This document shows, in pieces, positions 13,919 through 21,032 of a DNA stretch of 21,032 bases. The position numbers and the translations under genes were made by a program. How positions within the stretch are numbered: position 1 is the first letter of the stretch; each line of letters opens with the position of its first letter. The stretch is from IMG/VR virus record IMGVR_UViG_3300030104_003299, positions 338 through 21,369 of that record. One strand, written 5' to 3'. Under the pieces are notes generated by a model that had not been told where the DNA came from, did no database searches, and saw nothing but the letters and a program-made list of their open reading frames with translations. Source of the stretch: a virus.

Positions 13919-14652
13919 TGTCTGAGATACCAACCATAGGGATAGGTCAAATAAATGTTACTCCAATTTCTGTTCATAATATTAATCTTTCAATACCATT
14001 TACTCCACCTGTAACACTACAGATTGGATCTCCAATAGTTGATGTTCCAGGTTGTGTTAAATTTAATCCTGCAAATAAAAATTCCATAGAACTTGTTAAT
14101 CAGGATGAGAGAGGATCTCGCATTTTATGTGATGGTTCTGTCCCCTGGTTTGAGCCTATAGATTATCAACCAGAAAATCTTATATATGTACAGGAAGAAT
14201 CAGTTCCTGTTGTTGCACCACCTCCAGAAGCAAAGACAGATCAACCTGGTGTAGGTGAAATACCAAACACAGATACAAAAGAAGATGTACCCTGCCCTGG
14301 GCCTACTGACCAGAGGGTAGGAGATATGAGAAACGCAGAATCCAGAGAGAAAGTTGTTTCACATTCTCTTAGTCCAGATGGTCAAACCTGCATAACAAAC
14401 TACGAATTGACATCACCTGTTGAGAAATATCTACCTACAACGTCACAGATAAGCACAACAGCTGCAATCGCAGTCGTAGCAACCGCTGCAGCAGCTTCAA
14501 CACCCATATTATTAAGGTTAATAAAGCCAATAATAAAGCAGGCTATTAAGAGAATTAAGGCTTTGTTAGGTAAAAAAGAAGTAGAAAGATTTAAAGGATT
14601 GAAAAGAAAGAAGAAACTTATTTCGGAATCGAATGCTGATGATTCGGAATAA
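13918..14652 (+). CDS. Pro-rich protein with C-terminal membrane helix and basic tail (244 aa, GTG start)
   Basis: The GTG at 13918 overlaps the previous TAG by one base and reads M(V)SEIPTIGIGQINV. Residues 1-100 are Pro/Val/Ile-rich beta (PFTPPVTLQIGSPIVDVPG), with Cys46 and Cys71; Cys126 and Cys158 follow in a polar, Pro-rich stretch (PGPTDQRVGD, SPDGQTCIT). A hydrophobic Ala-rich helix (about 180-202, TAAIAVVATAAAASTPILLRL) is followed by a strongly basic tail (KPIIKQAIKRIKALLGKK, RFKGLKRKKK), the layout of a C-terminal anchor with a cytoplasmic basic tail. Its last 35 bases overlap the convergent minus-strand gene. With its coupled partner it probably forms a membrane complex; function unknown. 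Confidence 0.65.
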   Translation: MSEIPTIGIGQINVTPISVHNINLSIPFTPPVTLQIGSPIVDVPGCVKFNPANKNSIELVNQDERGSRILCDGSVPWFEPIDYQPENLIYVQEESVPVVAPPPEAKTDQPGVGEIPNTDTKEDVPCPGPTDQRVGDMRNAESREKVVSHSLSPDGQTCITNYELTSPVEKYLPTTSQISTTAAIAVVATAAAASTPILLRLIKPIIKQAIKRIKALLGKKEVERFKGLKRKKKLISESNADDSE

Positions 14653-15262
14653 CACCGTGAGGATTTGTCACTACAATATCTGCACAGATTTTATATGAAG
14701 GACTCTCAGGATGAAATGATACTCCGAGCTTTTTCTGCTCGGCACAGTGCTTTAATCTTGAAATCTCAAAGTCTAATCTTTTGTTAGCAACTAACTGAGC
14801 ATAGTATTGATTCTGCGTATCAGCAGCCTTCAGGCAGCCTTCATTATGACGTTTATCTAATGGGATGGATATTGTAGCTGAGATACCCCATCCAATATTG
14901 TGATTAGATTTCTGACCTGTCCTGGTAGGTTTGTAATAAAGAACAGATCCTGGATTATCTAATGCTCCATCATTGTTGGTATCACTGTTGTCGAACACTG
15001 GGTCCATATAAATATCTTCATACGGTTCCTTCCATGAATCACTTAGAGTTACAAACGGGGTGATGTTCAAAGTAGATCCCTGACACTGAACTCCATTGCC
15101 ATAAGTATTAGTTATGTAAGGACCCTGAAGCACCTGTATAGCTTGATTCGTAACGCTCCCTGATGAATTTGCTACTGGATTTGCAGTGGCTGACACACCT
15201 CCCACCTCATTGGCATAGACAGGAGCACCAAGAATATTCAGTGCAATCAGTATAAACTTTAC
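14618..15262 (-). CDS. Exported Cys-containing protein with calcium-loop-like motif; start codon unclear
   Basis: The open frame on the minus strand extends up to an ATG at 15430, but the first 56 codons would lie on top of the upstream gene in another frame and are not protein-like. A clear signal peptide (KFILIALNILGAPVYA, cut before NEVGG) begins right where the upstream gene stops. The codon there (15262-15260) is GTA, overlapping the TAA stop, not ATG/GTG/TTG. The mature part has TNQAIQVLQGPYITNTYGNG, four Cys (two possible disulfides), a loop SDTNNDGALDNPG matching the DxNxDGxxD calcium-loop pattern, TRTGQK, ATISIPLDKRH and a C-terminal helix ANKRLDFEISRLKHCAEQK. I recognise this as a type of protein recurrent in marine T4-like phages, of unknown role. 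It is the third gene of an exported trio. Confidence 0.65.
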   Translation of the reverse strand, partial: VKFILIALNILGAPVYANEVGGVSATANPVANSSGSVTNQAIQVLQGPYITNTYGNGVQCQGSTLNITPFVTLSDSWKEPYEDIYMDPVFDNSDTNNDGALDNPGSVLYYKPTRTGQKSNHNIGWGISATISIPLDKRHNEGCLKAADTQNQYYAQLVANKRLDFEISRLKHCAEQKKLGVSFHPESPSYKICADIVVTNPHGVIPNHQHSIPK

Positions 15263-15720
15263 TGGCTGAACGTGGAAACCGTGTCTGTGACTGAAGTTAC
15301 CTCGGTTGTTCTCTGGATTATTGTCTGAGATTTTAGTCCGGGTTGACTGAGAGTTGTTGTCAGTTGCCAAGGTTTGCTGGAATCTGTTACAGAGAAGTTC
15401 GGCATATTTGTAGCATCTAGGCTTGTCCACGTAGAATTAATCCCATTTACTGCTTGGGTCGTGCTTGTAGCAGGAGGAACCAAGCTATTACTATCTGTGC
15501 TTATATTATTACCTGTAACTGTATATTGCCAGCCTGTCTGATATTCAATCACATTTATGGTCTCGGTCACCGTAGAGCTAGTCTCAGTGTGACTGGTAAG
15601 ACTACCACTCTGAAAGTTTGGGACCACAGGAACGCCTTCTACAGGTACATTCAGTGAGCTTAATACGACCACAGGTATCACACTTTTCAGGATCTTCATT
15701 TTCTTTAACAGCAAAAGCAT
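15259..15720 (-). CDS. Exported Ser/Thr-rich beta protein (153 aa)
   Basis: Two starts compete: ATG 15720 (MLLLLKKMKILK) and ATG 15699 (MKILKSVIPVVVLSSLNVPVEG), the latter giving a more normal signal peptide, cleaved near residue 29-30 of the longer form. The mature protein is Cys-free and Ser/Thr-rich: GSLTSHTETSSTVTETINVIEYQTGWQYTVTG in the first half, then PGLKSQTIIQRTTEVTSVTDTVSTFSQ at the end. The TSVTDTxSTFSQ ending and TETIN motif fit a family I associate with cyanophage genomes, function unknown. It lies twelve bases after the first trio gene, and its stop coincides with the start region of the third. Export to the periplasm or the cell surface is inferred. Confidence 0.65.
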   Translation of the reverse strand: MLLLLKKMKILKSVIPVVVLSSLNVPVEGVPVVPNFQSGSLTSHTETSSTVTETINVIEYQTGWQYTVTGNNISTDSNSLVPPATSTTQAVNGINSTWTSLDATNMPNFSVTDSSKPWQLTTTLSQPGLKSQTIIQRTTEVTSVTDTVSTFSQ

Positions 15721-18499: not shown

Positions 18500-18756
18500 T
18501 GAACTGTTGGCACTGTGGACCAGATGTTCAGTTAATCTGGGGAGCAGATTTTAGTGGAGAAGACTATTGTAATGATGAGATTTCTATAGTTACTAATCTT
18601 TCTTGTCCTAAATGTGGATCATATGTAGAAGTATATTTACCAAAAGATGAATACAGACCTGATTTTTCTGAAGATTTAATAGAAAAAAATAAGAAAGAAC
18701 CTATAGACACTGCTCCATGTTCTGTTGAAGAAGATATACCTGTTTGTGATATCTAA
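18496..18756 (+). CDS. Zinc-knuckle mini-protein, second of two neighbours (86 aa)
   Basis: It overlaps the preceding gene by four bases (ATGA). C4xxC7 (MNCWHCGPD) and C37xxC40 (LSCPKCGSYVEVYLP) repeat the zinc-ribbon layout of its neighbour, with a similar spacing (29-32 residues) and an equivalent acidic insert (FSGEDYCNDEIS). A longer acidic tail (DEYRPDFSEDLIEKNKKEP, ending DIPVCDI) is added. Similar spacing and the shared xxCPxCGxxVExY motif show the two genes are paralogues. The stop codon TAA lies within four bases shared with the minus-strand stop of the oxygenase gene. Confidence 0.65.
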   Translation: MMNCWHCGPDVQLIWGADFSGEDYCNDEISIVTNLSCPKCGSYVEVYLPKDEYRPDFSEDLIEKNKKEPIDTAPCSVEEDIPVCDI

Positions 18757-19547
18757 ATAAGAGACCAGGCTCTATACCATTTAGTAAGAATATATTTTTT
18801 ACCTTTGATAGGAGGCATTGCCTCATGCATAGTTTTATAATTAGGCCAACCAAACCCATAAAGATTATTCCAAAAAACAGCCAGTCCACGTTCAGGTTTA
18901 ATTTTTAGATCAAGATATTTAAAATGTGTTTCACCACCTTCTTCTACATCATTTAAATAAATCATAAAAGTCCAGGTTCTCTGTCCCATCCATTCGGTAT
19001 AAGTTTTGTATTCTGCAGAGAAAGGATGATAGGAATCCCAGTGAGCTTTGTAGAATTCACCTTCTTCATATTTCTGACCCTGTATAGATTCTCCTAAGAA
19101 AGGATCTAAATCTAAATAATGTCCTATCTTTATAGTTAGATCAGCTCCTAATTTTGTTAGATGAGGACTGAAATTACAGGTCATAGATGTTCTATATGGA
19201 GATACCATTACTCTGTCATCTTCATTAGAAACTGATGAAGGATGTAATTCAGTTTCCATGTATTCAATAGCTTCTTTACATTCTTCTTCACTTAAAAAAT
19301 TCTTTTGCAGGTATATCTGTGTGAAAGGATACTTTAATTTTTCTGCTGTATCAGGTATCTGCAGGTCATAAAACTTTTTAAAATTAACAAATCTAGGTTT
19401 CTTTTTGAACTCATGTATCTTCATTAATTCTTTTATTTCATCTTCACCACAGTCATAATATTCTTCCATATGTCTCATAATCTGTGCTTTACTTGCACCA
19501 CTGATGGCTGAGATTAAGAAATCCTGTTCTGCTGCTTCAGTAATCAT
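18753..19547 (-). CDS. 2OG-Fe(II) oxygenase, prolyl-4-hydroxylase-like (264 aa)
   Basis: This is a minus-strand gene from ATG 19547. The catalytic beta-helix core is at about 150-262: YEEGEFYKAHWDSY provides H169-x-D171; a WTFMIYLNDVEEGGETHF strand pair follows; then PERGLAVFWNN; then TMHEAMPPIKGKKYILTKWYR with distal H241 and K251, ten residues later, as expected for 2-oxoglutarate binding. This is the HxD...H...K signature of the P4H family, and all four ligands are present, so it should be active. Residues 1-75 are an N-terminal helical extension (GASKAQIMRHMEEYYDCGEDEIKELMKIHE) outside the core. Substrate is unknown: protein prolyl or lysyl side chains are possible; no collagen-like repeat is seen in this window. 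Such oxygenases are common in T4-like cyanophages. Its stop overlaps the convergent zinc-knuckle gene. Confidence 0.88.
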   Translation of the reverse strand: MITEAAEQDFLISAISGASKAQIMRHMEEYYDCGEDEIKELMKIHEFKKKPRFVNFKKFYDLQIPDTAEKLKYPFTQIYLQKNFLSEEECKEAIEYMETELHPSSVSNEDDRVMVSPYRTSMTCNFSPHLTKLGADLTIKIGHYLDLDPFLGESIQGQKYEEGEFYKAHWDSYHPFSAEYKTYTEWMGQRTWTFMIYLNDVEEGGETHFKYLDLKIKPERGLAVFWNNLYGFGWPNYKTMHEAMPPIKGKKYILTKWYRAWSLI

Positions 19548-19769
19548 AGAGTCTAGAATAGTAATAGATCTAAATATGTTCGAGTGGAACCATTTGTCTT
19601 TACTTTTATTATCATCTTTTATTCGATAAATGCTAGTAGTTCCTACATGTTAAATCAGGGTTTGAAGAGAAGTGAAGATAAATTTCATACAAAATCTCTA
19701 AGAAAAAATAGAGTTTATGAAGATTGACAGCTATGGCACCTATAGTTTCTGCTGTTAGGATGGGAAATA
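19548..19769. other. 222-base region between divergent genes
   Basis: This gap separates the leftward oxygenase from the rightward NblA-like gene, so it should hold promoters for both. I see no exact TATAAATA on either strand, only weaker forms (CGATAAATG near 19624, GATAAATTT near 19677). Two very short plus-strand frames occur: 19647-19727 (26 codons, basic, MLNQGLKRSEDKF...) and 19733-19777 (14 codons, MAPIVSAVRMGNNG), the second overlapping the start of the next gene. They might be leader peptides, but neither has enough support to be called a gene. Confidence 0.4.
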
Positions 19770-19994
19770 ATGGTTGATTTAATGGAAACAGAACTGTCAA
19801 TGACTGAACAGTTTGCAATTCATGCCTCTGCTATTGCAATCAAAGAGTTTGATCGTGAAGAGCTGGAGGAGGCTTTTGTTGAGATGCTTTACAATAAAGC
19901 AGTAGAACGTCAGACTTTCATAGCAATTATGAAAGAACATGGCATTGATGCTGATATCAAACTATCTTTCCTAAACGCTAATCAAGTCCCTTAA
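19770..19994 (+). CDS. NblA-like protein, candidate phycobilisome-degradation adaptor (74 aa)
   Basis: The product is small and entirely helical. ELSMTEQFAIHASAI resembles the first helix of NblA (ELSLEQQF.I......), and EELEEAFVEMLYNKAVERQTFIAIMKEHGIDAD resembles the second (...DFLV.LYEQMV.RE.....LLK.....D..). NblA proteins are about 55-65 residues; here 74 including short ends. In cyanobacteria NblA binds phycobiliproteins and targets the antenna to Clp protease; freshwater and some marine cyanophages carry nblA (established knowledge). This would supply amino acids or adjust light harvesting in infection. The start could also be ATG 19782 (METEL), which would better match NblA length. The assignment rests on pattern matching by eye; a generic helical protein is the alternative. 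Confidence 0.5.
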   Translation: MVDLMETELSMTEQFAIHASAIAIKEFDREELEEAFVEMLYNKAVERQTFIAIMKEHGIDADIKLSFLNANQVP

Positions 19995-19999
19995 TACAA

Positions 20000-20380
20000 A
20001 TGGCTACTCGTACAATTTCAGGTACTCTAGACACTCTCGAAACAGACGGTGCTGAGATAACCTATGTCGGATCAACAGATGCCTGTGATCGCAGTGAAAA
20101 TATTCGTGGTTTCCGTGTTAACCCAGGTGGCACAGGAGACATAATCGTAACAATTGATAGAAGCACAGGTGTTAAATCAGTTGAGATCTTTCAAGAAGAT
20201 GTCTATGCAGGATCTTCTGCTCCTACCGGATATAAAGGGTTCAGTAATATTGAACAAAATGGTAAAGGTAAAGGTGCTGTCGGTATGACAGTTACTAACG
20301 CTGCTAAAGATTACCTTGTCATATTGAAAACAGATGGTTATTCTGAGGTCACCTTTGGTGGCACAGTAGATGTCCCTTAA
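20000..20380 (+). CDS. Uncharacterised beta-rich protein (126 aa)
   Basis: The ATG at 20000 follows the preceding stop by five bases. The sequence is strand-rich and polar: MATRTISGTLDTLETDGAEITYVGSTDACD, then IRGFRVNPGGTGDIIVTIDRSTGVKSVEIF, then KGKGAVGMTVTNAAKDYLVILKTDGYSEVTFGGTVDV. No signal peptide or TM segment is present. The FRV.PGG.GDI.VTID pattern, a beta-sandwich-like form, is often seen in virion proteins or secreted domains, but I assign no family. Its last 11 bases overlap the start of the lysozyme-like gene. Confidence 0.6.
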   Translation: MATRTISGTLDTLETDGAEITYVGSTDACDRSENIRGFRVNPGGTGDIIVTIDRSTGVKSVEIFQEDVYAGSSAPTGYKGFSNIEQNGKGKGAVGMTVTNAAKDYLVILKTDGYSEVTFGGTVDVP

Positions 20381-21032
20381 ATTAAATACTTCTTATTTAA
20401 ACGAACACTCTTTAAGAATAATAAAACACTACAATCTGGCCAGAACTCTAATGGGTTCTGGTCGTTTTGCTTCTTATAAGGATCATGGAGAATCAATATG
20501 GAGAATAGGATATGGAAGTATGGAGATACATGGAAAGGTTGTTACACATAGAACTCGTGCAACTGAAAAAGAAGTAGATGAACAATTAAATACGGATTTA
20601 CAGATACTATCTCACAAGCTTTCAAAGATAGTATTCTGGCCATTGAATCCGAAAAAGAAAGCAGCTGTTATTAGTTATGCATTTAGTAATGGATTTATTC
20701 CATTTAAAAATTCTCAGCTGTTAGAACTTATTAACTCAGGCTGTCACAAGAAAAAATTGATTAAAGAGTGGTCTCCTTTTATTAATAAAGCTTGGTTAAA
20801 TAAGTCTGATTTTATTATTGATCAACGTAGATCTGAACTTAATTTATTCTTAGCAGCAGATAAGGAAGTTCCTACTTTTCTACCTCATAAATGTAAATCA
20901 AAGTATTGCCTTTTAAACATACATGAAACATATAATGGGAACGTAAACCAAATTAAAGGTATTAATTATCTAGAAAAAAAGATTCAAGAACTTGATCCTT
21001 CAGGGGACGTTTTACGTCGATTTTTCCGTTAT
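20370..21032 (+). CDS. GH24 lysozyme-like protein, active-site residues apparently lost (partial, at least 221 aa)
   Basis: An ATG at 20370 (overlapping the previous gene) opens a frame that runs to the window end without a stop. FASYKDHGE..WRIGYGS (34-50), AVISYAFSNGFIPFKNSQLLELIN (99-122) and DQRRSELNLFLAA (151-163) match the phage GH24 lysozyme core (..AY.D..G..TIGYGH, ..FAFN.G...F..S.LL..LN, ..RR..E..LF). T4 lysozyme uses Glu11, Asp20, Thr26. Asp20 is matched by Asp38, but the position of Thr26 is Arg45, the GYGH His is Ser50, and no Glu stands at the expected place (Gly29, or Asn22 if a gap is allowed). So peptidoglycan cleavage may be weak or absent. The tail beyond 165 (CKSKYC, NYLEKKIQELDPSG) is not lysozyme. 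The function may be structural or cell-wall binding. Confidence 0.65.
   Translation, partial: MSLKLNTSYLNEHSLRIIKHYNLARTLMGSGRFASYKDHGESIWRIGYGSMEIHGKVVTHRTRATEKEVDEQLNTDLQILSHKLSKIVFWPLNPKKKAAVISYAFSNGFIPFKNSQLLELINSGCHKKKLIKEWSPFINKAWLNKSDFIIDQRRSELNLFLAADKEVPTFLPHKCKSKYCLLNIHETYNGNVNQIKGINYLEKKIQELDPSGDVLRRFFRY

Follow-up and report, generated by a model that had tools for sequence, protein, structure and literature searches.

In our reading, a short gene near the end of a viral contig encodes a divergent NblA-superfamily protein and belongs to the core genes of the S-EIV1 cyanophage lineage, and its product most likely serves as an adaptor for proteolysis. We put the probability of this reading at about 0.6. 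The whole stretch of DNA analyzed (21,032 nucleotides, referred to as the window) makes up most of this contig, which is 21.4 kb long.

The gene and its conserved neighborhood

The 74-codon open reading frame at positions 19770–19994 (+ strand) was confirmed, and its product is as the original prediction described it, with ELSMTEQF in helix 1 and a second motif in helix 2. The gene and its surroundings comprise the following features:

18753–19547, − strand: 2OG-Fe(II) oxygenase gene, divergent upstream (PF13640, E = 4.2e-14)
19753–19761, + strand: extended −10-type motif TGTTAGGAT, a putative promoter (consensus in relatives, TGNTARRAT)
19782–19994, + strand: nblA-like gene, 70 aa from the favored start codon (74 aa if translation begins at 19770)
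20000–20380, + strand: next gene downstream, a conserved neighbor encoding a 126-aa protein without a Pfam match
20370–21032, + strand: phage lysozyme gene (PF00959, E = 9.3e-13), which runs past the end of the window

The start codon had been left undecided between 19770 and 19782, and both are possible. Since relatives begin with MDANALDLP, METNVLELS or MLDLD, and since the conserved promoter-like motif ends 20 bases upstream of 19782 and 8 bases upstream of 19770, the second ATG (19782) is favored. Judged from the sequence, the 70-aa product is therefore the more likely one.

Relatives of the gene were found in IMG/VR at 12, 18, 183 and then more than 300 places as the alignment was broadened, and those examined showed about 50–100% identity. 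They share the core [QE]F-x-[ILV]-HA ... DR[DE]ELEEAF ... K ... Q-x-F ... [ILV]-[LM]-K-[ED]-HGIDA, in which the lysine corresponding to K55 of the window protein is invariant. The dN/dS ratio (Nei-Gojobori) was about 0.08 between the window and relative L006 and 0.09–0.14 among close relatives, indicating that the protein is under purifying selection, which is strong in the low-GC clade. Given more than 180 places with relatives and these low ratios, we conclude that the reading frame is a real gene and did not arise by chance.

The 126-aa gene lies directly downstream in 83 of 83 loci, all of which were found through the nblA-like gene itself, and a lysozyme gene then follows in 81 of them; the remaining two contigs (L056 and L061) end before that point. 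The divergent 2OG oxygenase, named as a neighbor at the outset, is indeed present in the window and adjoins the nblA-like gene in many relatives, though not in every one. TGNTARRAT occurs within 60 nt upstream of the gene in 26 of 26 representatives, mostly 20–35 nt before the start, compared with a mean of 0.25 and a maximum of 3 in shuffled upstream regions. These 26 regions are homologous and hence not fully independent, with proteins reaching down to about 50% identity. In the window, the exact form of the motif occurs once. No obvious −35 box was seen at normal spacing. The motif may be a lineage-specific promoter, and it would be a putative driver of the nblA-like/126-aa/lysozyme block, a function that we infer from sequence. 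The conservation of the block in all 83 loci, each of them found via the nblA-like gene, led us to reject the idea of a sporadic auxiliary gene; the gene looks like a core gene of the lineage. The label of auxiliary metabolic gene, which the original prediction had used, is doubtful for a gene that sits in a conserved, lysozyme-linked block.

Relationship to NblA

When the window protein alone was compared with the Pfam NblA model (PF04485, curated cut-off 25 bits), there was no match. Half of the relatives (12 of 24) matched the model, with a best E of 7e-4, and none of those tested reached the cut-off (15.5–19.3 bits, and 16–17 bits for the S-EIV1 homologue). A phmmer search of the PDB (177,635 sequences) with the window protein nevertheless ranked the NblA structures 3cs5 and 1ojh first and second (E = 0.013 and 0.065). 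With a family profile built from 24 relatives, 3cs5 was again first (E = 7.4e-6) and 1ojh second (E = 0.0079), while the next, unrelated chain had an E of 0.14. We then aligned this profile by hhalign with 12 NblA proteins taken from cyanobacterial plasmids, viral contigs, cyanophages and PDB entries. The alignment gave a probability of 96.7%, an E of 3.3e-10 and a score of 52.1, whereas 200 column-shuffled profiles reached at most 19.7 and the reversed profile 10.4. Two other candidates, DUF3231 (E = 0.02 with the window protein) and the ribonucleotide reductase N-domain, were rejected, as each matched fewer relatives and none significantly. A PHROGs search gave no useful match. The proposed resemblance to NblA thus stands as remote homology detected by family profile and hhalign, although it fails as a PF04485 match. 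Profile comparison indicates that the gene is a real, remote relative of NblA, and since the window protein has no Pfam NblA match and the relatives tested all stay below the cut-off, it is assigned to a divergent subfamily.

Beyond the significant profile match, the family shares with cyanobacterial NblA (PF04485; 3cs5, 1ojh) the length and spacing of the two helices, LSxxxQF before helix 1 and, toward the end of helix 2, a Lys that lines up in the alignment. K55 aligns with K53 and I53 with L51 of Anabaena NblA, two residues that we take to be involved in phycobiliprotein binding. Identity to the cyanobacterial proteins, however, is only about 20–25%; the conserved motifs DRDELEEAF and HGIDA were not observed in NblA, and where NblA has WGL, the phage family has HGIDA and a C-terminal extension of 8–15 residues.

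An AlphaFold2 model of the window protein (mean pLDDT 77, pTM 0.44) contains helices at 11–25 and 29–56, and a control model of a genuine NblA contains helices at 8–20, 26–38 and 44–55; after a three-residue offset, the helices of the window protein are at positions equivalent to those of the control. The model, of moderate confidence, predicts a helix-loop-helix monomer of about 60 residues, in agreement with the two-helix product expected of an NblA. By analogy with NblA, the product would presumably form a homodimeric four-helix bundle. Foldseek found no PDB chain with the window model, only noise in BFVD, but since the model of the genuine NblA also missed NblA, this result carries no weight.

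NblA proteins encoded by phages, divergent marine forms included, are already known (PMC9602691), and the present family is a further divergent subfamily. The freshwater cyanophages Ma-LMM01 and PaV-LD likewise carry an NblA homologue, but theirs score above the Pfam cut-off, belong to unrelated phages and are not detected by our family profile. For S-SCSM1 (ORF237) and S-TIM5, among the marine cyanopodoviruses and cyanomyoviruses, divergent homologues were recognized by HHpred (PMC9602691). Both belong to other phage lineages, and ORF237, with 54 aa and a different sequence, also goes undetected by the family profile.

Phage lineage and likely hosts

The gene had been ascribed to a marine T4-like phage. 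This proved wrong, as the window and its relatives carry genes of the S-EIV1 lineage. Of 15 long contigs that contain the nblA-like gene, 14 encode an S-EIV1-type family A DNA polymerase (43–75% identity); the window's own contig is not long enough to reach it. A 59.8-kb relative (G002) has an S-EIV1-like primase and other replication genes, and the window shares with S-EIV1 an HNH gene (41%), a gene for a 93-aa basic protein (39%) and genes of the virion region. These gene comparisons place the window phage in the S-EIV1 lineage. T4-like affiliation was rejected on the same grounds, the sole DNA similarity being a 72-base match to P-SSM2 and P-SSM5. The window also contains two overlapping reading frames (14618–15430 and 15259–15720, both − strand) that are 88% and 94% identical to their counterparts in G002.

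S-EIV1, the founding isolate, infects freshwater Synechococcus. With the single window protein, tblastn against named phages returned only noise, and S-EIV1 was reached via a diverged relative. Searched with the family profile, the S-EIV1 genome yielded a single place, the hypothetical protein AHV82245 (E = 4.4e-5), and the Pfam NblA model independently picked out this reading frame as well (E = 5.9e-4). Like the window gene, it lies beside a lysozyme gene, but it follows that gene instead of preceding it and lacks the promoter motif; the protein has 31% identity, an acidic C-terminal tail and no conserved Lys. The nblA-like gene occurs in its standard form in contig G017, the polymerase of which shares 75% identity with its S-EIV1 counterpart. 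A survey of photosynthesis genes listed the S-EIV1 group with hli and ptoX but without nblA (PMC5332604). In the S-EIV1 lineage the subfamily seems to be fixed, and accessible records and literature do not annotate it there.

A search of genome contigs gave a sole match, in a Bacteroidetes MAG. The phage-like contig concerned (L022, QQUU01000116.1) has the block and is a fragment of an S-EIV1-type phage, so its placement in that MAG is probably a binning error. A Photo_RC gene pair resembling purple-bacterial pufLM (L112) is also present in this MAG.

Close relatives of the window phage carry high-light-inducible (hli) genes and three more distant contigs carry psbA, which shows the host to be cyanobacterial. 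Contigs G007 and G008 encode the nblA-like gene at 68–69% identity. Their PsbA proteins group with those of Prochlorococcus phages (support 94/89) and are parted from six Synechococcus phages by a 100/99 branch; one Synechococcus phage, S-SSM7, falls on the Prochlorococcus-phage side. Nucleotide psbA rankings agree with the protein tree. S-EIV1 itself has no psbA, unlike these two contigs of its lineage (L114 and L113). The GC content of the window is low (36.4%), and its DNA matches are confined to Prochlorococcus phages. Both observations agree with the PsbA grouping, although the window showed no host gene of its own; for the low-GC marine branch, Prochlorococcus is the probable host. This genus has neither phycobilisomes nor nblA (PMC7439483).

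Proposed function and alternative readings

As an adaptor of ClpC, NblA binds phycobiliproteins and hands them over for degradation (PMC7966870; PMC4103541), and phage NblA proteins cause phycobilin loss (PMC9602691). The two-helix product is probably expressed, along with the 126-aa protein and the lysozyme, from a promoter of its own, and by homology it would dimerize as NblA does. Its N-terminal motif would recruit the host chaperone ClpC, and the end of helix 2, with the family Lys that aligns to NblA, would bind a phycobiliprotein. Substrates could be phycobilisome subunits or, in Prochlorococcus-type hosts, leftover phycoerythrin, which ClpC-ClpP would then degrade during infection. Dimer, ClpC binding, substrate, timing and benefit to the phage are steps that we infer, as is phage control of the host antenna. 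We counted against the adaptor reading the missing PF04485 match of the window protein and the sub-threshold scores of the relatives tested, the replacement of WGL by HGIDA and a tail, the low pTM of the model, the Prochlorococcus-type psbA of relatives in view of a genus without phycobilisomes and nblA, and the linkage to lysozyme, which points to late expression. A different substrate is possible, given that the C-terminus is replaced and that the hosts are probably Prochlorococcus.

A possible, though not likely, alternative is that the protein descends from NblA but was repurposed, as a ClpC adaptor or decoy whose substrate, either handed over or shielded, lies outside the phycobilisome; it would be conserved because the lineage infects both hosts that have phycobilisomes and hosts that lack them. 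The psbA grouping of G007 and G008, the GC content and DNA matches of the window, a host genus devoid of phycobilisomes and nblA, the strong purifying selection in the low-GC clade and a C-terminal end unlike that of NblA are all consistent with it. On the other hand, S-EIV1 infects Synechococcus, and for the window's own clade a Prochlorococcus host is putative. Moreover, Prochlorococcus retains residual phycoerythrin, which could itself be an NblA target. Broad-host cyanophages also exist, S-SCSM1 infecting both genera (PMC9602691). In a more speculative form, which we regard as rather doubtful, Prochlorococcus phages would carry and retain a protein descended from NblA that steers ClpC toward a new substrate, whether remaining phycoerythrin or an unrelated protein of the host, and thus acts as a general phage-borne Clp adaptor.

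It is quite improbable that the protein is no NblA at all but a small helical accessory of the late or lysis module, for instance in lysis timing or virion assembly, with a convergent similarity. Its tight linkage to the 126-aa gene in every locus, and to lysozyme wherever the contig reaches, would fit such a role, as would the failure of any curated family to reach its own cut-off and the ease with which small helical proteins give chance matches. However, the family profile ranks NblA first with a clear gap after it, shuffled and reversed profiles score below 20 against 52, the S-EIV1 homologue was found by two independent profiles, and the protein sequence has no long hydrophobic segment of the kind expected of a holin.

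Under the adaptor reading, which we prefer, one may ask what a protein that promotes antenna breakdown would do where the antenna is missing, as the gene is conserved in phages with Prochlorococcus-type psbA. This reading also offers a candidate function for a core gene, so far labeled hypothetical, in a widespread lineage of cyanophages, one that is testable in the isolate S-EIV1.
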